A DNA stretch of 64,000 nt, taken from positions 744,001 to 808,000 of the forward strand of contig NZ_JAOVZO020000003.1 of the NCBI RefSeq assembly GCF_025717065.2. Reading direction: 5' to 3'. The notes beneath the pieces are model-generated. The model worked only from the letters and a program-made list of their open reading frames with translations. It was not told where the DNA came from and made no database searches. Positions 12,078 through 39,800 of the stretch are shown here, piece by piece; the first letter of the stretch is position 1; every line of letters starts with the position of its first letter. The stretch comes from Tahibacter soli (lineage in GTDB: Bacteria; Pseudomonadota; Gammaproteobacteria; Xanthomonadales; Rhodanobacteraceae). Made by a program: the position numbers and the translations under genes.

Positions 12078-13391
<1,314 letters not shown>

Positions 13392-13453
13392 CGCTGCGCT
13401 GGGTTTTTTCTTCTGCTGTCGCCTCAGCGGACGCTGGGGTCCAGCTTGTGACT

Positions 13454-13885
13454 GTCGCTTTGTAGTTTTTGCCTGGCTTTGGACAAAGCGTTCCGCCCGC
13501 CTGCCGGCGGCCGTCCTGTTTTCTTTGTGATCGCCTCGCGTTGAACAAAGCGTTCCGCTCGCTGCCGCGAGCGGGCAGGGAGAGGTTGCTTGCCCAACCC
13601 CTCCCTGCACCCTCCAAGGGCACCCCGACGGCCGCGGTTTGCGGGCATCCGTGCCCGCAAACTCCGCGAGATCGCTCCGGGGTTCGTTGATGGGCCATCC
13701 ATGGCCCGTCAACGAACTGCGCACATCCTGTGCGCACCCGCTGCGCGGGCTTTTCCTCCGCGATCTCGCCGCGACCGACGGGGCCCCGGGTGAAGCGGGC
13801 GGCTTCCTGCCGCCAGAAGCAACGGCCGATGCTCGGCGATTCCTGAGCTCGTCATTCCAGCGCAAGCTGGAATCCAGCTTTTGGG
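13454..13885 (+). repeat. Hairpin-rich dispersed element, copy A (sense, 3' of murA)
   Basis: Noncoding. It starts GTCGCTTTGTAG and contains an ordered series of stem-loops. Hairpin a is at 13638-13661 (stem TTTGCGGGCA, loop TCCG). Hairpin b is at 13683-13716 (16-bp stem with one G-U, loop CC). Hairpin c is at 13718-13736 (TGCGCACA, loop TCC). A short CCCGC/GCGGG stem and GGCGGC/GCCGCC follow, then a REP-like palindrome (CCAGCGCAAGCTGG) near 13855. Copy B at 23534 has the same order and about 300 bases of near identity; copy C faces it on the other strand. Short frames here have no family resemblance. Confidence 0.85.
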
Positions 13886-13904
13886 GCGTCAAGAACAACA
13901 GCAA

Positions 13905-14271
13905 AGGCTGGATCCCAGCTTTCGCTGGGATGACGAACGTGGGGATCGCCGCTTCTTGCTGTTGCCGTTGCTTCTGGCGGCAGGAAGCCGCCCGCTTTCC
14001 CCGGGGCCCCATCTGCCGCGAGCAAGTGCCCGGCGATCAGGCCCGACAGGGGACGCACAGGGATGTGCGTCGTCCGTCGTGGTCCATGGATGGACCATCG
14101 GCGGACCCCGCCGGGCGCTTGCGGTCCCCGCAGGGCAGTATGCCCGGAGGGGCGCGGCAGCTGGGGTGGCCTTCTTTGGTTACTTTCTTCGGCCAGTCGA
14201 AGAAAGTGACTCGGCCGCCGGCAGGCGGGCGAAACGCTTTGTCGAAAGCCGGGCGAAAACTACAAAGCGAC
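13905..14271 (-). repeat. Hairpin-rich dispersed element, copy C (antisense to copy A, 3' of DUF3108 gene)
   Basis: Read on the minus strand this repeats the plan of copy A. The 60-base start at 14212-14271 matches 13454-13513 with four differences. Then come hairpin a (14133-14145, GGGCA/TGCCC), hairpin b (14080-14097, TGGTCCAT/ATGGACCA, loop CC), hairpin c (14053-14070, ACGCACA/TGTGCGT), a 41-base block at 13970-14010 matching 13780-13820 with two differences, and a REP-like palindrome near 13915-13935. An additional hairpin (CACTTTCTTCG type) lies at about 14180-14210. Copies A and C are tail to tail between convergent genes. Confidence 0.82.
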
Positions 14272-14330
14272 GACAAGGTCAAAATTACCGGAACGAAAGA
14301 AGAACACCGGCGAGAGCCCGAGCGCAGCGA

Positions 14331-15020
14331 CTACCTGATAGAAACCAACTCCATCACGATAGTCCCGCCGTCCCCCTGCACCTGCTCGATCTTCACCGGC
14401 GCCGGCACATCCGCCGAAATCCACGAACGCCCCTTGTTCGCGACGTCGACGCGATCGATGCGCCGCGCCGCATAGCTGCCCGCCGGCACCTTCACGTTCT
14501 CGTTCGCGGCGACCGTGAAGCGCTGGTCTTCCAGGTGGTCCTTCGTCGCGACGATCAGCGTCGTTTCCTTCGCCTCGCCCGCGAGCGCCTGCACCAGCGC
14601 GACGCCGACGGCGTGCCGGTCCATCGTGCCCGGCCGGATCGGATAGCGGAACTGTTCCTTGTTGTCGACGACGCGCACTTCGCCGGCCTTCCAGTCGAAA
14701 TCGGTGTGGCGCTGCTTCGACTTGAACGTCGCATCCTGCTTGAAGTCGTATGCGACGCCTTCGGGTTTGCCGTCCTTCCAGCGGAAGTTCGACTCCTCCT
14801 TCACGTCGAGCCCGAGCATGCGCGCCATGCCGGCCGTGCCCTTCGTCTGGCTCGTCAGCGTCCACGTGCCGTCGCCGCGATCGGAGAGCGTCATCGTCGT
14901 TTCGCCGACGGGCTTACCGTTGCGTATGACGTTGTAGGTGGCCGCGAACGGTTTCGGCGCGGCATGGGCCGCGAGCGGCAGCAGGGCGGCCAGCAGCAGG
15001 GCGTATCGATCCAGGCGCAT
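14331..15020 (-). CDS. Secreted DUF3108 family protein
   Basis: 229 residues with a signal peptide (MRLDRYALLLAALLPLAAHA, cut after AHA), then an all-beta domain of the DUF3108 family. Its usual neighbour in this lineage is purN/purM, as here. Family members are periplasmic or outer-membrane associated and lack a proven role. The gene is 67 bases downstream of purN on the same strand and may share its transcript. Its 3' side runs into repeat copy C. Confidence 0.88.
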   Translation of the reverse strand: MRLDRYALLLAALLPLAAHAAPKPFAATYNVIRNGKPVGETTMTLSDRGDGTWTLTSQTKGTAGMARMLGLDVKEESNFRWKDGKPEGVAYDFKQDATFKSKQRHTDFDWKAGEVRVVDNKEQFRYPIRPGTMDRHAVGVALVQALAGEAKETTLIVATKDHLEDQRFTVAANENVKVPAGSYAARRIDRVDVANKGRSWISADVPAPVKIEQVQGDGGTIVMELVSIR

Positions 15021-15087
15021 GAGGGTCTCCGAACGAATGGCGCGAGTCTGAACGTACTCGCCTGAACGTTTGCCGGAGCCCGCGGGT

Positions 15088-15723
15088 TTACACGACGAGC
15101 GGCGGAACGTCCCGCGCGACGCCGTCGACGTGCACGCGTTCGCCCGCGAGCGCGACCTTGCCGTCCGCGATCCACGCGACGCACTGCCGCAGCAGCCGAT
15201 GCTCCAGCGGCAGCAGCCGCGTCGCGAGCGAGTCGGGCGTGTCGCCGGGTTCGATCGCGAGGTCGACCTGCGCGATCACCGGACCGCCGTCGAGTTCGGC
15301 GGTGACGTAGTGCACGCTCGCGCCGTGCCGCGCGTCGCCGGCCGCGAGTGCGCGCGCATGCGTCTTCAAGCCGGCATATTTCGGCAAAAGGGAAGGGTGG
15401 ATATTGATGACGCGGCCGATCCACGGCGCCAGCGCGGCCGGATCGATCACGCGCATGAAGCCGGCGAGCACCACGAGATCCGGCGCGTACTCGCCCAATC
15501 GTTCGAAGAATTCGCGATCGTAGCCCGCGCGATCGGCGTAGCCCGCCGGATCGAGCGCGAATGTCGCGATGCCGGCCGCTTCGGCGCGGCGCAGTCCTTC
15601 GGCCGCGACCTTGTTGCTGCCGACGACGACGATGTCGACGGCCAGTTCCTTCGCCGCGACCGCGTCGATCAGCGCCTGCAGGTTCGAGCCGCGGCCCGAT
15701 ACGAGCACCGCGACGCGCAGCAT
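15088..15723 (-). CDS. purN: Phosphoribosylglycinamide formyltransferase
   Basis: 211 residues from the ATG at 15723. It transfers formyl from 10-formyl-tetrahydrofolate to GAR in purine synthesis. The SGRGSNLQAL phosphate loop is at residues 9-18. Catalytic residues are N107, H109 (INIHPSLLP) and D145 (ELDGGPVI). It starts two bases after the purM stop, so the two genes are coupled. Confidence 0.97.
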   Translation of the reverse strand: MLRVAVLVSGRGSNLQALIDAVAAKELAVDIVVVGSNKVAAEGLRRAEAAGIATFALDPAGYADRAGYDREFFERLGEYAPDLVVLAGFMRVIDPAALAPWIGRVINIHPSLLPKYAGLKTHARALAAGDARHGASVHYVTAELDGGPVIAQVDLAIEPGDTPDSLATRLLPLEHRLLRQCVAWIADGKVALAGERVHVDGVARDVPPLVV

Positions 15724-15725
15724 GG

Positions 15726-16763
15726 TCAAGCGATCGACACGCGCTCGTCGCCGCTCGCCGCGACGATTTCGCCGATCTGGCGCGACGCAAGGCCCAGCGC
15801 CGCGAGCGCGGCGATCGTCGACTCGGCGTCGTCGCGCGCGACGATCACCGTATAGCCGATGCCGCAGTTGAACGTGCGCCACATTTCGTCCTGCGGCACC
15901 GCGCCTTCGCGCATGAGCCAGTCGAACAGCGGCGGCAGCGTCCAGCTCTTGGCGTCGAGCGCGATGCCGAGCGCCTCGGGCACCACGCGGATGATGTTTT
16001 CCTTCAGGCCGCCGCCGGTGATGTGCGCCATGCCCTTGATCGGGTGCGCCGCGAGCAGTTCGAGAATGGGTTTGACGTAGATCGTCGTCGGCGCGAGCAG
16101 CGCGTCGGCCAGTTTCACGCCGCCGACGTCGAGATCGAACGGGTTGCCGGCGCGCGCCACGATGCGGCGGATCAGCGAATAGCCGTTCGAATGCGCGCCC
16201 GACGAGTCGATGCCGATGATCGCGTCGCCGGCCACGAGCGAATCGCCGCTGACGAGCCTGGATTTTTCGACCGCGCCGACCGTGAAGCCGGCCAGATCGT
16301 ATTCGCCGGGCGGATACATGTCGGGCATTTCCGCCGTTTCGCCGCCGATCAGCGCGCAGCCGGCGAGTTCGCAGCCCTTGGCGATGCCGCCGACGACCGC
16401 GACCGTGGTGTCGACGTGGAGCTTGCCGGTGGCGAAATAATCGAGGAAGAACAGCGGCTCGGCGCCCTGCACCAGCACGTCGTTGACGCACATGCCGACG
16501 AGGTCGATGCCGATCGTGTCGTGGCGGTCGAGCGTCTGCGCGAGCTTGAGCTTCGTGCCGACGCCGTCGGTGCCGGAGACGAGCACGGGCTCCTTGTAGC
16601 GCCCCGCCAGCTCGAACAGCGCGCCGAAACCGCCGAGGCCGGCCATCACTTCCTTGCGGAACGTGCGCGCGACCAGGGGTTTGATGCGCTCGACGACTTC
16701 GTTGCCGGCGTCGATGTCGACGCCCGCGTCGCGGTAGGTCAGGGCTTGCTTGTCGGCGGTCAT
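15726..16763 (-). CDS. purM: Phosphoribosylformylglycinamidine cyclo-ligase (AIR synthetase)
   Basis: 345 residues from the ATG at 16763; the frame extends seven codons upstream to a TTG, which is less likely. It closes the imidazole ring of purine precursors with ATP. Visible motifs are [29 protein letters not shown] (split here as VGMCVNDVL and [11 protein letters not shown]), [11 protein letters not shown] and [17 protein letters not shown] -10-like box on the minus strand at 16795-16800 would give a leader of about 25 bases. Confidence 0.97.
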
Positions 16764-16882
16764 TGCGTAGGGAAGGTCGCACAAAAGGGGCGCAATGATA
16801 GCAGCCGCGACGGCCTCGGGTTGGACGCCGCCCGGCGGTTTCGGCAGACTTGGCCCGCCCGCCCGCCGACCAGGGACTGTCC

Positions 16883-17953
16883 GTGCGTTATTTTCGACCG
16901 CTCGTTTTCGCCTTCGTCCTGCTCGCGCTCGGCCAGGGACTCGTGTTCGCGCAAGGCGCGACGAGCCTCTACGCCGGCGAGGTGCCGGTGACGGACCAGT
17001 CCGACGGGCAGCGCGTCGAGGCGCTCAAGAACGCGCTGGCGCAGGTCGTCGTGAAGCTCACCGGCGACAAGGGCGTGCTCGCGAACGAGGCCGTCGCGAA
17101 GGCCGTCGGCGAGGCCGAACGCTACGTGCAGCAGTACCAGTATCGCCAGGAAGTGGTCACCGAGAACGGTGCGCCGGCGATCCGCCTCTCCCTCATCGCG
17201 CAGTTCGATCGCGGCGCGGTCGACCGTCTCGTGCGCGAACGCGGCCTGAAAGTGTGGGCCACGGCCGCGCGCGCGCCGATACTCACCTGGATCGCGCTCG
17301 ACGACGGCAACGGTCCGCGTCTCGTCGCCGACGCGAACGACGCCGGCGCCCGCGCGATGGCGCAGGCCGGCGAACGCCGCGGCGTAGCGCTCGCGTGGCC
17401 CGCGCTCGCCGACGACGCGCAGAACGCGCTCGCGACGCAGTCGGTCTGGGACGGCGACGTCGCCGGACTTTCCGCCAGCGCGTCGCGCTATCAGACCGAC
17501 AGCATCCTGATCGGCCAGTTGCGCCGCGTCGGCGACACCTGGGTCGCACGCTGGACGCTCGCGATCGGCGGCGTGGCGCAGCCCTCGTGGGAGTCGCGCG
17601 ACGCCGATCTTGCGACCGCGCTCGCCGTCGGCGCCGACGGCGCGGCCGACCGCGTCGGCGGCCGCAGCGCCGCGGTGCCGGAAGAACGCCGCATCACGTC
17701 GGCGCGCGTGTGGATCAGCGGCCTGCATTCGGCCCAGGACTACGCGCGCATGTACGAGGCGCTCGGCCGCAACGACCTCGTGCGCGAATTCGTGCCCGAG
17801 CAGGCGCGCGGCGACGGCCTGCTCGTCAAGATGACGCTGAACCTCTCGCTCGACCGCTGGATTTCATATCTGCCGCCCGACGGCGCGCTGCGCCTCGTCA
17901 GCGCGCAGCCGCCGGTCGATGGCGTGGAGGCCACCCTGGCGCTGAATCCGTAG
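16883..17953 (+). CDS. DUF2066 domain secreted protein
   Basis: 356 residues from a GTG at 16883, preceded by AGGGA and giving a clean signal peptide ([22 protein letters not shown]). A TTG 33 bases earlier is open but would spoil the n-region. The rest is a DUF2066 domain (periplasmic, function unknown), usually found between purM and the CDP-alcohol transferase/hda genes in xanthomonads. It is divergent from purM with a gap of about 120 bases and runs into the next gene two bases after its stop. Confidence 0.85.
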
Positions 17954-17955
17954 GC

Positions 17956-18522
17956 ATGCGTCACCTGCCCAACATTCTGACGTTCCTGCGCATACTGCTG
18001 ACGGTGCCGCTCGCGTGGCTGTTGCGCGACGGGCGTTACGACGCGGCGCTCGCCGTCGCGCTCGTGGCGGGCCTGACCGACGCCCTCGACGGGTTTCTCG
18101 CCAAGCGCTTCGGCTGGCAGAGCTGGCTCGGCGGCGTGCTCGATCCGATCGCCGACAAGCTCCTGCTGTTCGTCTGCTTCATCGGCCTGGCGCACGTCGG
18201 CGCGCTGCCCGTGTGGCTCGCGTGGCTCGTCGTCGGCCGCGATGTCGTCATCGTCGCGGGCGCCGTTGCGTATCACAATCTGATCGGCCCGCTCACCGCG
18301 CAGCCGAGTTCGCTCTCCAAGCTCACCACCTGCCTGCAGATCGCGCTCGTGCTCGCGTGCCTCCTGCACCTGTCGCGTTTCGGCGACTGGCCGGCGTGGG
18401 TCAACACGGCGATGTTCTGGACGGTCGCCGCGGCGACCGTCGTCAGCGGCCTCGACTATGTCGTGCACTGGGGCACCAAGGCGTGGCGCGAAGGCCGCGC
18501 GTCTTCCGGAGACAAGCGATGA
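17956..18522 (+). CDS. CDP-alcohol phosphatidyltransferase family membrane protein
   Basis: 188 residues and several membrane helices. The CDP-OH-P motif is DALDGFLAKRF, then GGVLDPIADK, giving the D-G, A-K/R, G and paired D residues needed for metal and CDP-alcohol binding. It is probably a phosphatidylglycerophosphate synthase-like enzyme of phospholipid synthesis, but it could use another alcohol acceptor, and another PgsA may exist elsewhere. The stop overlaps the AI-2E permease start (ATGA). Confidence 0.9.
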   Translation: MRHLPNILTFLRILLTVPLAWLLRDGRYDAALAVALVAGLTDALDGFLAKRFGWQSWLGGVLDPIADKLLLFVCFIGLAHVGALPVWLAWLVVGRDVVIVAGAVAYHNLIGPLTAQPSSLSKLTTCLQIALVLACLLHLSRFGDWPAWVNTAMFWTVAAATVVSGLDYVVHWGTKAWREGRASSGDKR

Positions 18523-19706
18523 ACGCTACCGAACGCTGGCAATGGATCTTCCTCGTTCTCGTGCTCGGCGGGCTCGTCTACCTGCTCGCGCCGGCGCTCA
18601 CGCCGTTCGCGATCGCCGCATTGTTCGCCTACCTGTGGGACCCTGTCGTCGATCGCCTGGAGCGCCTGCGCGTATCGCGCGACTTCGCGGTGACGCTCGT
18701 GTTTCTTCTGATCATCGTGCTCGTCGTGCTGATCGTGCTGCTGCTGATTCCGTACCTCGAGCGGCAGGTCGCCAAGCTGATCGAACAGCTGCCGCGTTGG
18801 CTCGCGTGGGTGCAGGCCGAGGCCGCGCCGTGGGTCGAGCAGCGGTTCGGCGTGACGCTCGATTTCGCCGATCCGCAGAAGCTCATCGACATGCTGAGCG
18901 GCCATTGGCGCGAAGCCGGCGGTCTCGCCGCGACCGTGCTCGCGAAGGTGTCGAAGTCGGGCTTCACGGTGATCGGCTGGGTCGCGCAGCTCGTGCTGAT
19001 TCCCGTCGTGACGTTCTACCTGCTGCGCGACTGGGACGTGCTCGTCTCGCGCGTGCACGAACTCTTGCCGCGCAAGGTCGAACCGACCATCGCGAAGCTC
19101 GCGCGCGAATCGGACGAAGTGCTCGGCGCGTTCCTGCGCGGGCAGCTGAGCGTGATGGTCGCGCTCGGCGTGCTGTACGGCGTCGGGCTGTGGCTCGTAG
19201 GCCTCGATGTTGGTCCGCTGATCGGCATGATCGCGGGTCTCATCAGCTTCGTGCCGTACCTGGGCGCGATCGTCGGCGTGGCGATGGCCCTCATCGCCGC
19301 GCTCGTGCAGTTCGGCGACTGGCAGCACGTCGTGATGGTGCTCGCCGTGTTCGGCGTCGGCCAGACGATCGAAGGCTACGTCCTCGTGCCCAAGCTCGTC
19401 GGCGACAAGATCGGCCTGCATCCGGTCGCCGTGATCTTCGCGATCCTCGCCGGCGGCGAACTGTTCGGCTTCCTCGGCGTGCTGCTCGCGCTGCCGGTCG
19501 CGGCGGTCGTCATGGTCGTGCTGCGCTACCTGCACGAACGCTACACCGCGAGCCACCTGTACAACGCGGGCGCCGCGCCGCCGGGCGAACTCGTGCCGAC
19601 CGTGATCGTCGCCGGCCACGAAGCCGACGCGGCGCCCGCGCCGGCCGACATCGCGCTGATCACTGCCGATGCGCCGCCGCCCGCGGAAACCAGGCCGGTC
19701 GATTGA
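18519..19706 (+). CDS. AI-2E transporter (PerM/YhhT) family permease
   Basis: 395 residues with about seven to eight membrane helices. Paired N-terminal helices come first, then a periplasmic/cytosolic insert of about 100 residues (LERQVAKLIEQL and onwards), and a C-terminal bundle including the family motif GLISFVPYLGAIVG and LVPKLVGDKIGLHP. The Pro/Ala-rich tail is likely flexible. Members export small molecules or act as Na+/H+ antiporters; the substrate here is unknown. It sits before hda, as in many gammaproteobacteria. Confidence 0.92.
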   Translation: MNATERWQWIFLVLVLGGLVYLLAPALTPFAIAALFAYLWDPVVDRLERLRVSRDFAVTLVFLLIIVLVVLIVLLLIPYLERQVAKLIEQLPRWLAWVQAEAAPWVEQRFGVTLDFADPQKLIDMLSGHWREAGGLAATVLAKVSKSGFTVIGWVAQLVLIPVVTFYLLRDWDVLVSRVHELLPRKVEPTIAKLARESDEVLGAFLRGQLSVMVALGVLYGVGLWLVGLDVGPLIGMIAGLISFVPYLGAIVGVAMALIAALVQFGDWQHVVMVLAVFGVGQTIEGYVLVPKLVGDKIGLHPVAVIFAILAGGELFGFLGVLLALPVAAVVMVVLRYLHERYTASHLYNAGAAPPGELVPTVIVAGHEADAAPAPADIALITADAPPPAETRPVD

Positions 19707-19707
19707 C

Positions 19708-20397
19708 GTGCAGCAGTTACCGTTAGGCTGGCGCTGGCCGGCGCAACAGCGATTCGAGACGTTTCATGTCGGCGCGAACGGCATCGCCGTCGCGGCGATG
19801 ACGCGCGCGGCGACCGAACCCGACGCACCGTGGCTGTTCCTGCACGGCCCGGAAGGCAGCGGTCGCACGCATCTGTTGATCGCCGCGTGCCAGGCCGCGA
19901 GCGAGGCCGGATCGAGCGCGCAATACCTGCCGCTCGCGGCGCTGCCCGCGCCGCGCGCCGACGCGATCCGCGGCTTCGGCGGCAGCGACCTGCTCGTGCT
20001 CGACGACGTCGACGCGATCGCCGGCGAACGCGAGGCCGAGCACGCGCTGTTCGATCTGTACAACCGCTGCCGCGCCGAACGCTCGACGCTCGTGTTCGCC
20101 GCGACCGCGCCGCCGGCGCAGATCGGCATCACGCTGCCCGATCTCGTTTCGCGGCTGTCCAGTTGTACCCAATTGCCATTGAAGACGCTCGACGACGCCG
20201 AGCGCCGCGACGTGCTGCGCGCGCGCGCCGAAGCGCGCGGCATTGCGCTCGACGAGGCGGTGCTCGATTTCCTGTTCACGCGCTACGCGCGCGACCTCGG
20301 CAGCCTTGGCGCGCTGCTCGACCGCGTCGACCGCGAATCGCTCGCGGCGCAGCGGCGCGTGACCGTGCCGTTTCTGCGGCAGCTGCTCAGGTCGTAG
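19708..20397 (+). CDS. hda: DnaA regulatory inactivator Hda
   Basis: 229 residues from a GTG one base after the upstream stop. The N-terminal QQLPLGWRWP holds the QLPL clamp-binding motif that ties Hda to the DNA polymerase sliding clamp. The AAA+ P-loop GPEGSGRT is at 47-54 and Walker B is DLLVLDDVDAI. It stimulates hydrolysis of DnaA-bound ATP after initiation. A longer upstream start overlaps the permease and would bury the clamp motif, so the GTG is preferred even though its ribosome site is poor. It ends one base from the convergent DUF454 gene. Confidence 0.94.
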   Translation: MQQLPLGWRWPAQQRFETFHVGANGIAVAAMTRAATEPDAPWLFLHGPEGSGRTHLLIAACQAASEAGSSAQYLPLAALPAPRADAIRGFGGSDLLVLDDVDAIAGEREAEHALFDLYNRCRAERSTLVFAATAPPAQIGITLPDLVSRLSSCTQLPLKTLDDAERRDVLRARAEARGIALDEAVLDFLFTRYARDLGSLGALLDRVDRESLAAQRRVTVPFLRQLLRS

Positions 20398-20398
20398 T

Positions 20399-20788
20399 TC
20401 AGGCTTCCGCGCGCGGCGCGGGACGGCTCAGCACGTACGCCGCGCACAGCACGAACACCGCGGTGCCGCCGATGCCGAGCCACAGGCCCGGCCGTGCGAA
20501 GAACCAGAACGAGGCGACGCCCAGTGCCATGCCGGCGCACGCGAGCGTCTTGCCGCGCGCACTGATCGCGCCTTGTTCGCGCCATTGCCGTATCGTGGGA
20601 CCGAAGTGCGGATGCGCGAGCATCTTCGCTTCGAGGCGCGGCGAGCTGCGGCCGAAACACGCGGCCGCGAGGATCAGAAAAATCGTGGTCGGCATCAGCG
20701 GCAGTACGAGACCGATCACGCCGAGCGCGAGCAGGACGCAGCCGAGTACGAGATAGCCGATGCGCACCGCGCGGGCCGAATAAGACAT
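20399..20788 (-). CDS. DUF454 (YbaN-type) inner-membrane protein
   Basis: 129 residues from the ATG at 20788. Helices lie at about residues 8-40 (GYLVLGCVLLALGVIGLVLP, then MPTTIFLILAAACFGRSSP), with a second pair near 85-125. The PLMPTTIFLILAA and CFxRSSPRL motifs are typical of DUF454. Function is unknown. It converges on hda with a one-base gap, so neither has room for a private terminator. Confidence 0.9.
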   Translation of the reverse strand: MSYSARAVRIGYLVLGCVLLALGVIGLVLPLMPTTIFLILAAACFGRSSPRLEAKMLAHPHFGPTIRQWREQGAISARGKTLACAGMALGVASFWFFARPGLWLGIGGTAVFVLCAAYVLSRPAPRAEA

Positions 20789-20862
20789 GCGCGGCAGTGT
20801 ATACGAACGGCCGCCGGGCTCCACCCGCCTTGCGGCGGGCGAGCCCGGGCCTCGCTCGACGA

Positions 20863-21159
20863 TCAGCCCGCCTTGTCCTTCGCCGCCGGCTTCGGCGCGC
20901 CTTCGACGAGGATGAACTCGCGGTTGAGTTCGACCGTCTTTTCGCCGATGCCCTTGACGTTGACCAGGTCGTCGGCGGACTTGAACGCGCCGTTCGCTTC
21001 GCGGTACGCGACGATCGCCTCGGCCTTCGATTCGCCGACGCCGCGCAGCGCGGTGGCGAGCGTCGGCGCGTCGGCCGTGTTGATGTTGACCGGCTGCGCG
21101 GCGAAGGCCGGGAACGCGGCGGCGAGGGCGAGGGCGAGCGACGAGATCAGCTTGAACAT
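20863..21159 (-). CDS. Secreted helix-hairpin-helix protein, ComEA-like
   Basis: 98 residues with a signal peptide (MFKLISSLALALAAAFPAFA), then a tandem helix-hairpin-helix domain (VNINTADAPTLATALRGVG, and NVKGIGEKTVELNR). The Lys/Ala tail may help bind nucleic acid. This is the ComEA periplasmic DNA-binding class used in natural transformation, but without the membrane anchor. A strong AAGGAG site precedes the ATG. It is a good candidate for DNA uptake or retention in the periplasm; no other competence gene is in the window. Confidence 0.9.
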   Translation of the reverse strand: MFKLISSLALALAAAFPAFAAQPVNINTADAPTLATALRGVGESKAEAIVAYREANGAFKSADDLVNVKGIGEKTVELNREFILVEGAPKPAAKDKAG

Positions 21160-21318
21160 GACGTTTCTCCTTGGGTTGGGTTGGTGTCGCACCGGGTTCG
21201 GTGCCGACGTGAACAGGTTAGTTTTCGCAGCTCCTTCGCGCGTCGGGCGAATGCCGCTTCGTTGCCTGCGAAACCGCCGCGACGTCGCCTCGGATTTCTC
21301 CGAAAGCCGCGCCGGGAC

Positions 21319-21324
21319 TACAAT
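21319..21324 (+). promoter_or_regulatory. Putative -10 element for the M20 peptidase gene
   Basis: TACAAT lies 33 bases before the ATG at 21358, with TTCTCC 17 bases upstream as a moderate -35 match. The gap separates this gene from the divergent helix-hairpin-helix gene. Confidence 0.45.
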
Positions 21325-21357
21325 CGCGGCCTTTGCTTCGGTACGGATGGAAACCGC

Positions 21358-22836
21358 ATGAACCACGAACAGCTCGCCGCCTTCGTTTCGGCCAAGTGGG
21401 ACGACGACATCGTTCCGCGTCTCGTCGACTACATCCGCATCCCGAACAAGTCGCCGATGTTCGACGCCGACTGGCAAAAGCACGGCTACATGGACCAGGC
21501 GGTGGAACTGCTCGCCGGCTGGGCGAAGGCGCAGAGCGTGCCGGGCATGACCGTCGACGTCGTGCGCCTGGAAGGCCGCACGCCGCTGATCTTCATCGAC
21601 GTGCCGGGGCAGGGCGACGACTGCGTCGTGCTGTACGGCCACCTCGACAAGCAGCCGGAAATGACCGGCTGGGCCGACGACCTCGGCCCGTGGAAGCCGG
21701 TGATCAAGGGCGACAAGCTGTACGGCCGCGGCGGCGCCGACGACGGCTACGCGATCTTCGGCTCGCTCGCGGCGATCCTCGCGCTGCAGGCGCAGGGCAT
21801 CCCGCACGCGCGCTGCGTCGTCATGATCGAGGCGTGCGAAGAATCGGGCAGCTACGACCTGCCGTACTACGTCGACCATCTGGCCGACCGCATCGGCAAG
21901 CCGTCGCTCGTCGTGTGCCTCGACTCGGGCTGCGGCAACTACGACCAGTTGTGGCTCACCACGAGCCTGCGCGGCCTCACCGGCGGCAACCTCACGGTGC
22001 AGGTGCTGACCGAGGGCGTGCATTCGGGCGACGCGTCCGGCGTCGTCGCCTCGAGCTTCCGCGTGTTGCGCAAGCTGCTCACGCGCCTGGAAGACGAAAC
22101 CAGCGGCAAGATCCGCGTCGACGATTTCTACGTCGACATTCCCGCGCAGCGCGTGGAACAGGCGAAGGCCTCGGCCGGCGTGCTCGGCGATGCGGTGTAT
22201 TCCAAATTTCCGTTCGTGGACGGCATGCATCCGATGAACGACGATCTTGCCGAACTCGTGCTCAATCGCACGTGGCGGCCGGCGCTGTCGGTCACCGGCA
22301 TCGGCGGCATGCCGGCGCTCGACTCGGCCGGCAACGTGCTGCGCCCGTTCACCGCGGTGAAGCTGTCGTTGCGCATTCCGCCGACGCTCGAAGGTCATGC
22401 GGCCGGCGAGGCATTGAAGGCGCTGCTCGAACGCGATCCGCCGTACGGCTGCAAGGTGACGTTCGATCTGGAAAAAGCATCGACCGGCTGGAACGCGCCG
22501 CAGCTGTCGCCGTGGCTCGAGGCGTCGGTCGACGGCGCGTCGAAGGCGTTCTTCGGTCCGGCGCCGGCGTACATGGGCGAAGGCGGCACGATTCCGTTCA
22601 TGGGCATGCTCGGCGAGAAGTTCCCGGGCGCGCAGTTCCTCATCACCGGCGTGCTCGGCCCGCACTCGAACGCGCACGGCCCGAACGAGTTCCTGCACAT
22701 TCCGACCGGCAAGCGCGTGACGCAGTGCGTGGCGAAGGTCATCGCCGATCACTATGTGGCGAGCGGTCAGGGACTGACGACCGGCGTCGCGGCGAGCGCG
22801 GCGCATACGCAGCACGGCGATCACGGCTGCTGTTGA
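21358..22836 (+). CDS. M20 family zinc dipeptidase/peptidase
   Basis: 492 residues, the length of the M20 group with carnosinase-like and CNDP-type dipeptidases. Metal-binding positions are visible: the H of LYGHLDKQPE, the D of GRGGADDGY, the EE of EACEESGSYD, the D of VCLDSGCGN, and the H of GPHSNAHGPNEFLHI near the end. A dimerisation lid lies in the middle. It has no signal peptide, so it should be cytoplasmic. Unusually, the last residues are HTQHGDHGCC, a His/Cys-rich tail not needed for the fold. The PAP2 gene follows one base after the stop. Confidence 0.92.
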   Translation: MNHEQLAAFVSAKWDDDIVPRLVDYIRIPNKSPMFDADWQKHGYMDQAVELLAGWAKAQSVPGMTVDVVRLEGRTPLIFIDVPGQGDDCVVLYGHLDKQPEMTGWADDLGPWKPVIKGDKLYGRGGADDGYAIFGSLAAILALQAQGIPHARCVVMIEACEESGSYDLPYYVDHLADRIGKPSLVVCLDSGCGNYDQLWLTTSLRGLTGGNLTVQVLTEGVHSGDASGVVASSFRVLRKLLTRLEDETSGKIRVDDFYVDIPAQRVEQAKASAGVLGDAVYSKFPFVDGMHPMNDDLAELVLNRTWRPALSVTGIGGMPALDSAGNVLRPFTAVKLSLRIPPTLEGHAAGEALKALLERDPPYGCKVTFDLEKASTGWNAPQLSPWLEASVDGASKAFFGPAPAYMGEGGTIPFMGMLGEKFPGAQFLITGVLGPHSNAHGPNEFLHIPTGKRVTQCVAKVIADHYVASGQGLTTGVAASAAHTQHGDHGCC

Positions 22837-22837
22837 G

Positions 22838-23521
22838 ATGAATCGCGCCGTCGTCACCGACAACTGGTCGCGCCGCCTCGTTGTCGGTGTCGCGGCGCTC
22901 GCGCTGCTGGGGCTCGCCGTCTCGTCGCTGCTCGCCGAGGGCGGCGGCCATGCGTTCGACCGCGCGATCATGCTCGCGCTGCGCACGCCGGGCGCGATCG
23001 ACGATCCGATCGGGCCGAACTGGTTCGAAGACGTGATGCGCGACATGACGGCGCTCGGCGGCATCGCGGTGGTCGTCGGCGCGGGGCTGGTGTTCGCGGG
23101 CTATCTCGCGTTGCGGCGGCGACTCGCCGACGTCGCGATACTCGCGGCGAGTCTCGCCGGCGCGCAGGCGATCAGCGCGATCGCGAAGTTTCTGATCTCG
23201 CGGCCGCGGCCCGATCTCGTATCGCACGAGGCGGAGATCTACAGCGCGAGTTTTCCGAGCGGGCATACGCTGATGGCGACGGTGGCTTATGTCACGTTCG
23301 CGATGTTGATCGCTGCGGATTTTTCCGATCGTCGCGTTCGCGATTATCTGCTCGTTGTCGCTTGGGTGGTCGCCTTGGCGGTTGGCGCGAGCCGTATTTA
23401 TCTTGGCGTGCATTGGCCCAGCGATGTTTTGGCGGGGTGGGCTGTCGGCGCTTTGTGGATGATTGCGCTCCGCTCCTGGGTGCCGCGGTTGCGGGGGACG
23501 TTTGCGCACGCTCGCGCGTAG
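22838..23521 (+). CDS. PAP2 family membrane phosphatase
   Basis: 227 residues with about five to six helices. The three phosphatase motifs are present: KFLISRPRP (KX6RP), SFPSGHT (PSGH) and SRIYLGVHWPSD (SRX5HX3D). It probably dephosphorylates lipid phosphates such as undecaprenyl pyrophosphate, phosphatidylglycerophosphate or phosphatidic acid on the periplasmic face. A loop of about 45 residues follows the first helix. It is coupled to the M20 gene and followed by repeat copy B. Confidence 0.93.
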   Translation: MNRAVVTDNWSRRLVVGVAALALLGLAVSSLLAEGGGHAFDRAIMLALRTPGAIDDPIGPNWFEDVMRDMTALGGIAVVVGAGLVFAGYLALRRRLADVAILAASLAGAQAISAIAKFLISRPRPDLVSHEAEIYSASFPSGHTLMATVAYVTFAMLIAADFSDRRVRDYLLVVAWVVALAVGASRIYLGVHWPSDVLAGWAVGALWMIALRSWVPRLRGTFAHARA

Positions 23522-23533
23522 TTGTTGCTCGTC

Positions 23534-23981
23534 ACCCCAGCGCAAGCTGGGGTCCAGCTTTTTCTTTGTCGCTTTGTAGCTAACGCATCGTGTTGAACAA
23601 AGCGTTCCGCTCGCTGCCGCGAGCGGGCAAGGAGAGGTTGCTTGCCCAACCCCTCCCTGCACCCTCCAAGGGCACCCCGACGGCCGCGGTCTTAAGGGCA
23701 TCCTGCCCTCCGACTCCGCGAGCTTGCTCCGGGGTTCGTTGATGGGCCATCCATGGCCCGTCAACGAACTGCGCGCATCCCTGCGCGCACCCGCTACGCG
23801 GGCTGATCCTCCGCAATCTCGCCGCGGCCGACGGGGCCCCGGTGAAGCGGGCGGCTTCCTGCCGCCAGAAGCGACGGCAACGGCCGAAGCGTGGCATTTC
23901 TACTCCAGAAGCGACGGCAACGGCCGAAGCGCGGCATTTCTACAAAGCCGTCATACCGGCGAAGGCCGGTATCCAGCTTTT
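23534..23981 (+). repeat. Hairpin-rich dispersed element, copy B (sense, 3' of PAP2 gene)
   Basis: It begins 13 bases after the PAP2 stop with a REP-like palindrome (CCCCAGCGCAAGCTGGGG). It then matches copy A closely from GTTGAACAAAGCGTTCCG (about 23592) to GCCGCCAGAAGC (about 23872). Hairpin a is 23695-23709 (AGGGCA/TGCCCT), hairpin b 23735-23768 (identical to copy A), hairpin c 23770-23789 (TGCGCGCA on both arms). It ends in another palindromic unit (ACCGGCGAAGGCCGGT, 23956-23971). Stems a and c differ from copy A by paired changes that keep pairing. The whole 23522-24342 gap has no recognisable gene. Confidence 0.85.
23865..23943. repeat. 40-bp tandem duplication inside copy B
   Basis: The unit starting CCAGAAGCGACGGCAACGGC occurs at 23865-23904 and again at 23905-23943, with one base difference. 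Copy A has only one such unit, so this is a local recent duplication by slippage or unequal exchange. Confidence 0.9.
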
Positions 23982-24024: not shown

Positions 24025-24056
24025 CCCTCTCCCCCAAAAGCTTTTGGGGGAGAGGG
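24025..24056. repeat. Perfect 32-bp palindrome of the CCCTCTCCC family
   Basis: CCCTCTCCCCCAAAAG is followed at once by its exact reverse complement. Related palindromes with different loops occur at 33551, 33613, 60284 and 60385. Such repeats are scattered between genes in many high-G+C proteobacteria; their role is unsettled. Here the unit lies between copy B and the symE leader. Confidence 0.9.
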
Positions 24057-33810: not shown

Positions 33811-36800
33811 TTACCCGGATAAAGCGACGGCCTGGATCGCTCGCCTCCTGCGCTGCCGCACCCCGCCTGCAACCACCAGCCCCAGCACCAGCATCATCAA
33901 CCCGAACGTTCCGAGCCCCGGCACCGCCGTGACGTTGTTCGCCGGAATCATCGGGGTCGTGTCGGTCGCGCTGTTGTCGGTCGGGTCCGGGTCCGGCGTG
34001 TCGCTGGTCGCCGTCGCCGTGTTCGTGACCGTGAGGCCGCCCGTGTAGCTCATCGGCACTTCGTACACCGCGCTGATCGTGGCGGTGGCGCCCGCCGCCA
34101 GCGTGCCGAGCGTGCATGGGAATCCGGCATTGCACGGCGCGCTCGCCGAGACGAACGTCAGGCCCGCCGGCGTCGGGTCGGCGATGCGCGCGTTCAGCGC
34201 GTCCGACGGTCCCGCGTTCGACACCGTCACCGTGTACGTCACACGACCGCCCTGCCGCACCGTCACGCCGCCGTCCGATTTGGTCACCGTGAGGTTCGCC
34301 GAACCCGTGCCGAGCGGCGTCGGAATCGTGCCGCTGTTGTTGTTCGGGTTCGGGTCGGTCGTCGGGCTCGTGACGTTCGCCGTGTTCACGATCGGGTTCG
34401 GGCCCGTGTACGACGCCGGCACCCCGAGCACGAGGGCGATCGTGCTGCTCGCGCCGTTCGCGAACGTCGCCCGCGTGCACGTCAGCGTCGTGCCCGCGAC
34501 GCCGCACGACCAGCCCGCGCCCGTCGCGCTGACGTAGGTGAGCCCGGCCGGGAACGGATCGACGACGCTCACGTTCGACGCGTCGCTCGGTCCCGCGTTC
34601 GACACGGTCAGCGTGTACGCGATCGTGCCGCCGGGGCCTGCCACGCCGTTGCCGTCGTCCTTGACGATCGAGAGGTCGGCCGCTTCGCCCACCGGCACGT
34701 CGACCGTGCCGCTGCAGTGCGTCGCCTGCGGACAGCTCGCGTCGCCGCCGCCGGTGACGGTCGCGGTGTTCGTCACCACGCCGACGGCCGAGGCGATCGG
34801 CGTCACCGGAATCGTGAAGCTCACGCTCGCGCCGGCGGCGAGGCCGGCCGGTATCACGCACGTCACGCTCTGGCCGGTCGCGGTGCAGCCTTGCGGCGTC
34901 GCGCCGATCGCGAGCGACGCCGGCACCGGATCGGTCACGCTCGCCGCGGCCGTGGTCGCGGCGCTGCCGGCGTTCGTCACGACGATCGTGTAGCTCGCCG
35001 CTTCGCCGACGGTGAAGTTCGCCACGCTCGCGGTCTTGACGATGTTGAGCAGCGGCGCGTCGACCGGTGTCGCCGTGTCGCTCGCGCAGTGCGCTTCCTG
35101 CGGGCAGCTCGGATCGCCGCCGCCCGACACCTGCGCGACGTTGACGAGCACGCTGCCGCTCGCGGCCGGCGTCGGCGTCACCGGGATGACGAACGCGACC
35201 GGCGCATTCGGCGCGAGGCCGGCGGCGATCGTGCACGTCACCTGCTGGCCGCTCGCGCCGCAGCCGGCCGGTATCGCGCCGAGCGCGAGGCTGCTCGGGA
35301 CGTTGTCGGTCACCGTGGCGATCTGCGTCGTCGGCGCGCTGCCGGTGTTCGTCACGGTCAGCGTGTAGCTCGCGGGCGTGCCGACGACGAAGACGCCGGC
35401 GCTCGCGGTCTTGACGATCGTGAGCTGCGCCGCGTCGACCGGCACCGTGACCGAACCGGAGCAGTGCGCCGCGGCAGGGCAGGTGGGATCGCCGCCGCCC
35501 GACACGCTCGCGACGTTGACGACGCTCGTGCCGCTCGCCGCGGCCGTCGGCGTCACCGTCAGCGTGAAGCTCGCGCTCGCGTTGGGCACGAGGCCCGCCG
35601 CGATCGTGCACGTCACCTGCTGGCCGCTCGCGCCGCAGCCGGCCGGCACGTTGCCGATCGTCAGCGTGCCCGGCACGTTGTCGGTGACCGTCGCCGCCGC
35701 GGTGGTCGCCGCGGAGCCGACGTTCGTCACGACGATCGTGTAGCTCGCGCCCTGGCCGACGACGAACGCGTTGGCGCTCGCGGTCTTCGTCACGTTCAAC
35801 TGCGGCGCGTCGACCGGCACGTCGATGCTGCCGCTGCAATGCGCCGCGGCCGGGCACGTCGGATCGCCGCCGCCCGAAACCGTCGCGGTGTTCGCCACCG
35901 TCGTACCGCTCGCGGCGGCCGTCGGCGTCACCGGTATCACGAAGCTCACCGGGCTGTTCGTCGCCAGGCCCGCGGCGATCGTACAGGTGACCGTCTGGCC
36001 CGCGGCGGTGCAGCCGGTCGGCAGCGTGCCGATCGCGAGCGACGCGGCGATCGTGTCGCTGATCGTCGCGGGCGCGGTGGTCGCGGCGCTGCCGGTGTTG
36101 GTCACGGTCAGCGTGTAGCTCGCCGCCGCGCCGACGACGAACACGCCGCCGCTCGCGGTCTTGACGAGCGTCAGCTGCGGCGCGTCGACCGGCGTGTCGA
36201 CCGTGCTCGAACACGTCGCCGCGCCCGGGCACGTCGGATCGCCGCCGCCGGTCACCGTCGCGGTGTTCGTCAGCGTCGAACCGCTCGCGGCGGCCGTCGC
36301 GGTCACGGGGATCGTGAACACCACCGGCGTGTTCGTCGGCAGGCCCGCGGCGATCGTGCAGGTAACCTGCGAACCCGTCGCCGTGCAGTTGGACGGCAAA
36401 GTACCCAATGTCAAATTGGCAGGAATATTGTCGCCGACCGTGATCGCCGTCGTGGTCGCGGCGGTGCCGGTGTTCGTCACCGTGAGGCTGTAGCTCGCCG
36501 GCACGCCGACCACGAAATTGTTGCTGCTCGCGGTCTTCACGATCGTCACGCGCGGCGCGTTGACCGGCGCGACGACCGTGCTCGAACAGCGCGCGGCGGC
36601 CGGGCAGCCCGGATCGCCGCCGCCGTTGACCGTGGCGGTGTTCGAGAGCGTCGAGCCGCTCGCGGCGGCCGTCGGCGTCACGGCGATCGTGAACGCGACC
36701 GGCGAGCCCGTCGCGAGACCCGCGGCGATCGTGCACGTGACCGTCTGACCCGCGACCGCGCAATCGGGCGACACCGCGCCGATCGTCAGGTTGCCCGGCA

Positions 36801-39800
36801 CCGTGTCGCTGACCGTCGCGGCCTGCGTCGTCGCGGCGCTGCCGGTGTTCGTCACCGTCAGCGTGTACGAGGCCGGTACGCCGACGACGAAGCTCGGTGC
36901 GCTCGCGGTCTTGACGATCGTGAGCGCCGGCGCGTTGACCGGCGTCGTGACCGTGCTCGTGCAGTGCGACGCGCCCGGACAGCTCGGATCGCCGCCGCCG
37001 TTGACGGTCGCGGTGTTGACGAGCTGCTGGCCGTTCGCGGCGGCGGTCGGCGTGACCGGAATCGTGAAGCTCGCCGGCGTGCCGGTCGCGAAGCCCGCGG
37101 CGATCGTGCACGTCACGGTCTGGCCCGACGCGGTGCAGCCGGCCGGCAGCGTGCCGATGACGAGGTCTGCCGGAATCGTGTCGCTGACGGTGGCCGCGCT
37201 CGTCGTCGCCGCCGAACCGGTGTTCGTCACCGTGAGGATGTAGTCGCCGGGCACGCCGACGACGAAGTTCGTCGGATTCGCGGTTTTCACGAGCGTCAGT
37301 TGCGCGGCGTTGACCGGCGTCGTCACCGTGCCCTGGCAGCGCGTCGCGAGCGGACCGCCGGTCGGGCAGCCCGGATCGCCGCCGCCGGACACGGTCGCAT
37401 CGTTCGTCACCGACAGGCCGTTCAAGCTCGCCTGCGGCGTGACCGGAATGTCGAACGTCACCGGCGCACCGCTCGCCAGGCCCGCGGCGATGGTGCACGT
37501 CACGGTCTGCGCGACCGCGCTGCAGGCGGCCGGCAGCGTGCCGATCGTCAGGCCGCCCGGCAGCGTGTCGCCGATCGTCGCGACGGTCGTGGTCGCCGCC
37601 GTGCCGTTGTTCGTCACGGTGAGGCGGTACGCAGCCGGCACGCCGACGACGAACGTCGACGGCAGTGCGGTCTTGACGATCGCGAGCTGCGGCGCCGACA
37701 CGGTGTTCGACGTCGTGCCGGTGCAATGCGCGTCGATCGGACACGTCGCGTCGCCGCCGCCGTTCGCGACGGCGCTGTTGGTCAGGTTCTGACCGTCGAC
37801 GCTCGCCTGCGGCGTGACCGGAATCGTGTACGTCAGTGCGTTGCCCGGCGAGACGCCGGCCGGAATCGCGCACGTCACGACCTGGCCGATGCTCGTGCAT
37901 TCGGCCGGCAGGATGCCGAGCGTGAGGCCGGTCGGAATCGTGTCGGTCACGGTGCCCGCGAGCGTGTCGGCCTGGCCGTTGTTCGTCACGGTGATGACGT
38001 ACGTCGTCTGCACGCCGACGACGAAGCTGCCGGTGAGCGTCTTCGTCACGTCGAGACGCGGCGCGTTGACCGGCGTCGTGACGGACGCCGAACAGTGCGC
38101 GGCGGCCGGGCAGGTGGCGTCGCCGCCGCCCGAGGCCGTGGCCGTGTTGACGGCCGGCGAAGGCGTGCCCGGCGCGATGGCCACCGGCACGCCGATCGGT
38201 TGCGCGTTCGAACCCGGCAGCAGCACCACGTTCGACGTGCACGACACATTCGTCGTCGTGCTCGCCGCGCAGTTCCAGCCGGCGCCCGTCGGCGTGCCGC
38301 TCGCGGTGATGCCGGCCGGCAGCGGATCGTCGATCGTTATCGCGCCGCTCGTGCTCGACGTGCCGGCGTTGCGCACCTGCAGCGTGTAGCTCGCCGGCTG
38401 GCCGACGGCGAACGTCGTCGGCGTGGTCGTCTTGGTCACGGCGAGCTGCGGTGCGCCGCTGTCGCTGTTCGTGACGGTCGAGCTGCGCGTGCACGGCGGC
38501 GCGGTGCATGTCGCCGTCGCCGGCGGCGTGACCGTCGCGGTGTTCGCGATCGTGCCGGTGGCCGACAGGTCGACCGTGCCGTTGATCGCGATGGCGAGGC
38601 TGTCGCCCGCGCCGAGCGCGACGTTCGCCAGCGCGATGGCGTTGCCGGTACCGGTCGCGCCGGTGCCGCTCGCCGTCGTGTCGCAGTCGGCGCCCGTGCC
38701 GGTCGCCGTGCACGTCCAGCCGCTGACCGCGACGATGCCGGGCACCGTGTCGACGACGCCGACGCCCGCGAGCGGACTCGGCCCGTTGTTCACGACGCTG
38801 ATCGTGTACGAGATCGCCTGGCCCGGCAGGTACGTGCCGTTCGGCGTCGCGGTCTTGGTGATGACGAGATCGGCGACGACCGTCACCGGCACGTCGACGC
38901 TCGAGCCGCAGTGCGCCGCGCCGGGGCACGACGGATCGCCGCCGCCGGCGACGGTCGCGCTGTTCGTCAGCGTCGTGTTGCCGGCAGCCGCGGTCGCGGT
39001 GACCGGCAGCGTGAAGCTGGCCGACGCACCGACGGCGAGGCCTGCCGGAATCGTGCACGTCACGGTCGCGCCGGCGTTCGTGCAGCCGGCCGGCAGCGTG
39101 CCGAGCGTGAGGTTCGCCGGCAGCGTGTCGGTGACCGTCGCGGCGGCGTTCGTCGCGGCCGTGCCGTTGTTCGTCGCGGTCAGCACGTAGCTCGCCGGCA
39201 CGCCGACGACGAACGTCGTCGGGTTCGCGGTCTTGACGAGGTCGAGGCGCGGCGCGACGACCGGTGTCGTGGTCGTGCTCGTGCAGTGCGCGGCGGCCGG
39301 GCAGCCCGGATCGCCGCCGCCGGAGACCGTCGCGGTGTTGCTGAGCGACTGGCCGTTCGCGGCGGCGGTCGGCGTGACCGGGATGACGAATGCCGTGTTC
39401 GCACCGGCCGCGAAGCCGCTCGCGATCGTGCAGGTGACGACGTTGCCGGCGTTGCTGCAACCCGCGGGCATCGCGCCGAGCAGAAGCGTGCCGGGAACGG
39501 TGTCGCTGATCGTCGCGGCCTGCGTCGTGGCGGCCGTGCCGCTGTTCGTGACGGTCAGCGTGTAGCTCGCCGGTACGCCGACGACAAAAGTTCCACTACT
39601 GGCGGTTTTGACGATATCCAGTTGTGGCGCATTGGTCGGTGTCGTCGTGGTGCTGGTGCAGTGGCCGGCGCCGGGGCAGGTCGGATCGCCGCCGCCGGAG
39701 ACGGTCGCGGTGTTGGTCAGCGTCGTGCCGTTGGCGGCGGGCGTCGGCGTGACCGGGATGACGAAGCTCGTGTTCGCGCCGGCGGCGAAGCCCGCGGCGA

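Follow-up and report, generated by a model that had tools for sequence, protein, structure and literature searches.

Dispersed bacterial repeats are usually viewed as short palindromes or as decaying mobile debris. The closest described systems, the REPINs and BIMEs, are intergenic and palindromic, occur in tens of copies, form inverted pairs and often lie after genes, and RAYT transposases are linked to repetitive extragenic palindromic (REP) sequences (excerpts of PMC3686654). Here we describe an element that shares these traits, with REPs flanking many of its copies, and that occurs three times (copies A, B and C) in a 64,000-nucleotide (nt) window of the Tahibacter soli genome (assembly GCF_025717065.2, contig NZ_JAOVZO020000003.1, positions 744,001–808,000, forward strand; coordinates below are window positions). 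Unlike in REPINs and BIMEs, its units, which we call arms, are about 290 nt long and contain a core built on two stems (P1 and P2), a pseudoknot and a mirror third strand, and their end palindromes vary or are absent between genera. The arms belong to a dispersed element family that is undescribed in the literature searched, which was mostly open-access papers. New here are the covarying pseudoknot, the covarying mirror third strand and the convergent arms present in 48 of 85 loci of other genomes.

HEARO and other structured RNAs of mobile elements combine a complex fold with many copies, as does the element studied here, with which, unlike those RNAs, no associated open reading frame (ORF) was noticed. 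Telomerase RNA contains a pseudoknot triple helix. So does the guanidine-III riboswitch (PMC5696562, in part), and both resemble the arms in that a third strand follows one stem of an H-type knot; the arms, for which no sequence relation to either is expected, differ from them in being dispersed repeats with an extra multibranch core, for which the triplex is proposed from covariation only. The decoy RNAs CsrB/CsrC and RsmX/Y/Z/V/W carry several GGA-loop hairpins, which the arms have on the reverse strand. In contrast to these decoys the element is multi-copy and pseudoknotted, no promoter was found for it (sigma-70 consensus, 31 pair centres) and, as in the comparison with HEARO-type RNAs, there is no Rfam match at threshold. 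RsmU of Xanthomonas campestris, a later-reported RsmA-binding RNA, is alike in its location at a gene 3′ end and its GGA motifs, but according to the description in extracts of PMC7694677, on which the comparison is based, it is an RNA of 80–120 nt processed from the comEA mRNA.

A covarying multibranch core

RNAalifold, applied to the T. soli copies and to 32 diverse sequences, returned an outer stem P1, a hairpin a and an inner stem P2 enclosing hairpins b, c and d; on the T. soli copies it additionally gave two 5′ hairpins and one 3′ hairpin. A single strand of each arm is predicted to be able to form hairpin 1, an H-type pseudoknot with a mirror third strand, the P1/P2 core with hairpins a–d, and hairpin e. 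The element is larger than in the original prediction for this window, which had described hairpins a–c and lacked the 5′ hairpin, the pseudoknot stem and the 3′ hairpin.

Core pairs, pseudoknot and third strand all covary. Among 106 core matches (102 distinct arms) 95.4% of the core cells are paired, and in the 102 distinct arms 44 of the 49 core pairs carry two-sided changes. These arms contain 1226 two-sided cells compared to 364 after shuffling, and the covariation score of 0.628 contrasts with 0.178 for shuffled sequences and with 0.05–0.11 when the partner is slid by 1–3 columns. None of 500 shuffles reached four of the five covariation measures, though 39 reached the fifth, the number of further pair types. 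The paired stem changes quoted earlier for hairpins a–c are present in the sequence, and the selection for structure argued from them is strongly supported, with paired changes above chance. That the same predicted fold is kept while its letters change suggests that the fold does some job.

A pseudoknot with a mirror third strand

Stem S1 was found in 151 of 157 distinct arms, and its loop pairs with the segment immediately before P1 (pairing S2). Loop and partner variants include TGCCC/GGGCA, TGTCC/GGACA, TGGCC/GGCCA, TGCTC/GAGCA, TGTG/CACA, TGCG/CGCA and CGTG/CACG, among others. A pseudoknot of at least 4 bp forms in 96 of 102 distinct loop–partner combinations, compared to 43 on average and at most 57 with swapped partners; the covarying H-type pseudoknot of pseudoknot triple-helix RNAs is thus present in 96 of 102 distinct arms.

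Downstream of the stem the S1 purine strand recurs as its mirror image, as in AAAAGAGAA then AAGAGAAAA, AAAGGAGAA then AAGAGGAAA, and GAGAGAAA then AAAGAGAG; GAAGAAA then AAAGAAG is the mirror class of copy C. The purine pattern is present in 122 of 151 arms, and the T. soli A-type arms are among the 29 without it. A tract-based test of 29 distinct asymmetric combinations gave 24 mirror, 4 direct and 1 tie, a count that keeps three "direct" rows which look like over-long tract trimming. The third strand shows 22 mismatches when read as a mirror and 86 when read as a direct repeat; when third strands were permuted, mirror mismatches averaged 76.7 and 0 of 2000 trials reached 22 or less. This test replaced a cruder whole-strand comparison that gave a weak result (28 mirror, 18 direct and 8 tie of 54 distinct). 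A wider scan of all loci returned 188 mirror, 29 direct, 3 tie and 67 symmetric arms with overlapping loci counted twice, or 16 mirror, 4 direct and 2 tie among distinct ones. In far genomes, 15 of 20 rows gave 12 mirror, 1 direct and 2 symmetric. An uncorrected first pass over all 20 rows, which had placed a third-strand purine in the turn, gave 7 mirror, 7 direct, 3 tie and 3 symmetric; it was corrected for those 15, and the five rows left out comprise three scored direct (the tract was thought to be misread by the pattern), one repeated mirror and one symmetric. The A-type arms of T. soli have pyrimidine tracts that, read by eye from the alignment, are mirrored only next to the turn.

A mirror third strand that keeps step with its stem is the signature of base triples and points to a likely triple helix. 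A mirror repeat is what an intramolecular triplex needs, and it does not arise from simple duplication or palindrome repair. We also considered the third segment as an alternative-pairing switch, which was ruled out for most arms because the segment is a mirror and not a direct repeat.

The three copies in the window

All three copies lie where the original prediction had placed them and match R1, a covariance model of the 163-position core (49 pairs, built from 32 sequences). Their parts are as follows.

13418–13445, plus: degenerate REP-like palindrome before copy A (sequence reading)
13555–13574, plus: copy A 5′ hairpin 1, CCGCTCG/CGAGCGG (RNAalifold of T. soli copies; a C/T change is matched by G/A)
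13575–13622, plus: copy A pseudoknot (alignment of copies; S2 test)
13575–13588 with 13595–13608, plus: copy A stem S1 (alignment of copies)
13591–13595 with 13618–13622, plus: copy A S2, loop TGCCC pairing with GGGCA (S2 test)
13609–13617, plus: copy A putative third segment of pyrimidine type, which in part mirrors the 3′ strand of S1 (read by eye)
13621–13786, plus: copy A multibranch core (covariation; R1 match, E 2e-28, 154.5 bits)
13623–13637/13769–13783 and 13666–13675/13760–13769, plus: copy A P1 and P2
13637–13662, 13682–13717, 13718–13736 and 13737–13750, plus: copy A hairpins a, b, c and d
13798–13814, plus: copy A 3′ hairpin e, GGCGGC TTCCT GCCGCC (sequence, alignment)
13851–13878, plus: REP after copy A (sequence; repeated elsewhere in the genome)
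13908–13934, minus: REP after copy C, inverted relative to the REP of A (sequence)
13976–13992, minus: copy C 3′ hairpin e (sequence)
14004–14168, minus: copy C multibranch core (R1 match, E 5e-22, 122.3 bits)
14166–14210, minus: copy C pseudoknot (S1 14179–14191/14198–14210; loop 14192–14197 pairs with 14166–14171)
14170–14177, minus: copy C third segment, mirroring the purine strand of S1 exactly, GAAGAAA/AAAGAAG (mirror scan match at 14191, minus)
14214–14231, minus: copy C 5′ hairpin 1 (sequence, alignment)
23531–23558, plus: REP before copy B (sequence)
23607–23674, plus: copy B hairpin 1 (23607–23626) and pseudoknot (alignment)
23627–23640/23647–23660, plus: copy B S1, with S2 partner 23670–23674 (alignment)
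23673–23839, plus: copy B multibranch core (R1 match, E 1e-26, 146.0 bits)
23850–23866, plus: copy B 3′ hairpin e (sequence)
23950–23977, plus: REP after copy B (sequence)

Copies A and C, formerly listed as separate, are one convergent pair around two REPs. The REP-like palindromes ascribed to the element do flank the copies, but they stand outside the core, since elements of other genera show other palindromes or none visible. After copy B, a 40-base unit occurs twice in tandem (23865–23943) where other copies have runs of AACGGC-like hexamers, and a separate REP-like palindrome, CCCTCTCCC..GGGAGAGGG, lies at 24025–24056 and was also seen near arms in other genera.

A family spread through the Rhodanobacteraceae

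BLAST of the T. soli genome gave 118 matches with copy A and 99 with copy C, which merge into 59 places (within 272 kb of its own sequence), 41 of A type and 18 of C type. After eight partial places were dropped, 51 complete cores (36 A, 15 C) were aligned. Twelve of the 18 C-type places form a convergent pair with an A copy, by coordinates read by eye.

Copy A found relatives by BLAST in 14 of 41 genomes, T. soli included, all of the same family. The search of genome and relatives with a covariance model, suggested as a check on the first reading, extended this to 94 of 117 genomes and 23 of 26 genera of the bacterial family (E up to 1e-4). With the stricter filters used for searches of family, order and class, R1 matched 32 of 151 genomes of the order (E 1e-5) and 10 of 143 of the class (E 1e-6), the latter being T. 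soli and nine others with weak matches (best E 5e-11 to 6e-7). A 23-base core pattern occurred in 103 stretches; among the 80 listed, carriers are mainly Rhodanobacter, Tahibacter, Dyella, Dokdonella and Frateuria, of which Rhodanobacter and Tahibacter belong to the Rhodanobacteraceae, order Lysobacterales. Pattern matches in Bordetella, in an alphaproteobacterium and in a proteobacterial bin were taken as chance because they came without an nhmmer match.

In far gammaproteobacterial relatives the pseudoknot, the mirror strand and hairpins b–d are mostly kept, and the P1/P2 region is different, with repeated CTGCG..CTCG segments. Four contigs of one genome (C18, C27, C48 and C75 of G079) each begin about 130–165 bases from an arm; assemblies thus seem to break in the repeats, and the true copy numbers may be higher. 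Also in the T. soli genome (C20:794609–795196) there is a tandem array of 165-base period that contains a REP and a 5′ arm part and no core.

Position after genes, dispersal and evolution

Each copy in the window had been placed directly after a gene, in sense orientation, and the three upstream genes are borne out.

12132–13391, plus: EPSP-synthase family gene (MurA type), upstream of copy A
14331–15020, minus: DUF3108 gene, upstream of copy C
22838–23521, plus: PAP2 gene, upstream of copy B

Orientation counts support this position more widely, although the gene caller was simple and home-made and copies of one genome are not independent. In T. soli, the upstream gene is in sense for 33 A-type arms and antisense for 8 (31 versus 4 where its caller score exceeds 40, with six rows dropped), and the C-type counts are 9 and 8, with one uncalled. 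In other genomes the gene on the 5′ side of the arm is in sense 97 times versus 30 (94 versus 28 minus three repeat loci). These counts come from 85 loci chosen from model matches, where repeat and low matches were mostly left out and three repeat loci remained. They comprise 47 convergent pairs and one triple, together 48 loci with convergent arms, and 37 loci with arms in one direction only, among which are most loci of one genome (G084). Arm pairs with both flanking genes called lie between 21 convergent, 17 tandem and 5 divergent gene pairs; the bias seen for pairs is mostly one towards the 3′ ends of genes. Orientation proper is shown by single arms, with 31 sense versus 3 antisense (30 versus 3 without repeat loci) and 19 versus 1 in tandem gene contexts; in some single-arm loci a weak second arm may have escaped detection. 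Sense orientation to the upstream gene above chance, as in a 3′-untranslated-region (UTR) element, is thus observed.

Among 30 loci after murA from 41 genomes, only T. soli has the element, which supports the dispersal implied by the suggestion of a mobile element; against mobility, two T. harae loci (82% DNA identity over 3.3 kb in the comparison with T. harae) are syntenic with T. soli copies. In the tree, T. soli A (36), T. soli C (15) and T. harae (9) nevertheless form three separate clades, with support of 0.83, 1.0 and 1.0. Separate clades despite synteny would reflect either concerted evolution or a turnover of copies at these sites, with sequence homogenised within each genome.

Such concerted evolution would suit a plain repeat whose paired changes stem from mutation (hairpin-templated quasi-palindrome correction, gene conversion) and not from selection on the fold, as would the whole hairpins that, by eye, differ as blocks between copies. 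We disfavour this explanation as very improbable, since palindrome correction should neither yield a mirror repeat nor hold three segments in step, and the loop motifs of three hairpins are kept while the stems change, in far genomes too. Scarcely more probable is a SINE-like element, in which a structured transcript would be reverse-transcribed and inserted after genes by a reverse transcriptase (RT) of the host or element, with the telomerase-like knot as RT handle. The presence after murA in one genome, the one orientation to genes, the short tandem repeats after hairpin e that vary among copies and a single RVT_1 gene in the genome speak for it; against it, that gene lies about 15 kb from the sole arm on its contig, and no arm pair was seen around an RT gene.

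A stronger competitor, though one we still regard as unlikely, is a DNA-level element, where single-stranded or supercoiled DNA would adopt the fold, including an H-DNA-type triplex, for transposition (REPIN-like and moved by a RAYT) or as a supercoil sink between convergent genes. One genome has both arms in 16 of 16 fetched loci, 14 aligned units (G086) are bounded by inverted REPs, and the T. soli genome has seven Y1-transposase matches, four above the family cut-off. However, no arm lies within about 1.5 kb either side of these seven matches, 24 loci of other genomes have other end palindromes or none obvious, and single arms hold one orientation to the upstream gene.

Strand, loop motif and possible function

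The DNA-level explanation also draws on the pairs themselves, which are nearly all Watson–Crick: G-U makes up 1.3% and A-C 1.9% in the core compared to 5.0% and 1.1% in RNase P on its own structure. Mirror purine/pyrimidine tracts form DNA triplexes whichever strand is purine, and in the T. soli A-type arms the tracts are indeed swapped. Because overall wobble is low, a DNA-level fold stays close to the RNA-based reading that we develop below. It is at odds with the S1 and P2 wobble cells, which are unequal between strands. S1 has 71 A-C cells in 20 genomes versus 3 G-U in 3 (63 cells are other mismatches), and P2, counted by genome and pair, has 29 versus 3. As a forward-strand A-C is a reverse-strand G-U, this excess falls on the reverse strand. 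A strand-neutral test of the core gave 33 G-U versus 93 A-C on the forward strand, and the same test of RNase P on its true strand (30 relatives) gave 17 versus 8, a rough control since the RNase P sequences are less divergent (mean identity 0.865, compared to 0.656 in the element). By genome, A-C and G-U counts are 17/15 for P1, 6/0 for a, 8/8 for b, 3/10 for c and 0/1 for d. In the T. soli copies alone the strand signal is weak (A type 22 A-C versus 7 G-U, C type 4 versus 4). The mean folding energy is −105.9 on the reverse and −99.1 on the forward strand, the forward being lower in 2 of 32 sequences. By topology, we take it that on the reverse strand the pyrimidine loop would occupy the long stem's major groove.

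The loop motif likewise favours the reverse strand. TCC stands in loop a of 83, loop b of 102 and loop c of 96 of the 106 arms while stems change around it, and 73 of 106 c loops read TCCNT, which is ANGGA on the reverse strand. Of 26 far arms, 25 have one or more TCC loops and 22 have two or more reverse-strand GGA-loop hairpins. On that strand the loops read CA(N)GGA(Y)G, which we take to be the full RsmA/CsrA site consensus, and 8 of the 10 CA(N)GGAYG-loop hairpins in the window lie within the three copies; window-wide, GGA is not enriched in the same loop frame (GCG 15 and CGC 11 versus GGA 10). The genome has one csrA. The multiple GGA loop motifs typical of decoy RNAs are thus present, on the reverse strand only, and ANGGA in hairpins is a CsrA target (a passage of PMC7366521).

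These loops could also mark a family of small-RNA genes, in which every arm would have a promoter of its own and yield a reverse-strand RNA that serves in trans as an RsmA/CsrA decoy of CsrB/RsmY type. The three or so reverse-strand GGA-loop hairpins per core, the reverse-strand wobble excess in S1 and P2 and the lack of rsmB-type RNAs in Xanthomonas, as stated in portions of PMC3937308 and PMC7694677, agree with it. We consider it improbable, because the 31 pair centres showed no promoter-like site by sigma-70 consensus, no U-run was seen by eye after hairpin 1, and dozens of copies with a pseudoknot are unlike known decoys.

We tentatively prefer, at somewhat less than an even chance, that the arms are dispersed gene-3′-end elements, often convergent pairs, that would fold as RNA and act at transcript 3′ ends. 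The folding molecule would arise by read-through of the flanking genes, and a transcript across a pair would carry one arm in each polarity. The reverse-polarity arm would display GGA hairpin loops of RsmA/CsrA type and end in a pseudoknot with a pyrimidine-motif major-groove triple helix. This knot may block 3′ to 5′ decay at transcript 3′ ends, and the GGA hairpins may bind RsmA/CsrA, either at their own site or, given dozens of copies, as one common decoy.

Several observations weigh against this proposal. 3′-end protection and RsmA binding are its inferred parts, and it is weakened by the way single arms lie in sense, which brings UCC and not GGA loops into the message of the upstream gene, and by the promoterless pair centres (no sigma-70-like site in 31 centres; best −35/−10 match 6.45 of 12 versus 7.05 shuffled; sigma-70 consensus only). 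The S1 A-C cells fall largely on one position (C-A in 58 of 115 arms) beside the 63 other mismatches, the reverse-strand excess is modest by genome (63 A-C versus 37 G-U for the whole core, with hairpin c opposite and b even), core wobble is scarce on either strand (62 G-U and 91 A-C of 4907 cells), and its sign follows the structure of the strand used (173 G-U/106 A-C forward, 100/136 reverse, in forward letters). Hairpin d loops are UNCG-like on the forward strand, where the pseudoknot presumably also shows typical loop lengths and the more common geometry. The whole-strand comparison does not favour a mirror in most A-type rows, and because purine and pyrimidine strands are swapped in the T. 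soli A-type arms, a triplex there would not be of the RNA-friendly kind on the reverse strand. Nothing in the window reached the Rfam gathering score, and a loose Rfam search of seven loci gave 11 weak matches, all sub-threshold, of which RsmW was the only related one (30 bits versus a threshold of 52, E 0.14, locus L092). On balance, the reverse strand is favoured by wobble pairs, triplex chemistry and loop motif, the forward strand by gene orientation. The earlier suggestion of a structured RNA or 3′-UTR element accordingly holds for the selected fold and the sense position, and is countered by these three strand features.

A bolder version of our proposal, which we think doubtful, is that Lysobacterales and relatives possess RsmA/CsrA-binding RNAs as a self-spreading set distributed over the genome, in which each arm has three or more reverse-strand GGA hairpins and a telomerase-like knot of C+.G-C and U.A-U triples. 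If so, the copies together would buffer free RsmA and could be the missing antagonist system of the order. Across many genera the arms retain one fold, about 290 nt long, whose pseudoknot and third strand change in step, while copies within a genome are homogenised. This supplies many natural variants of the fold, together with a likely base-triple helix that is open to mutational test.

Elsewhere in the window, at 34797–41950, about 19 tandem copies of a 375-base unit lie within a reverse-strand ORF of about 12 kb (33811–45702) that encodes a giant repetitive protein.

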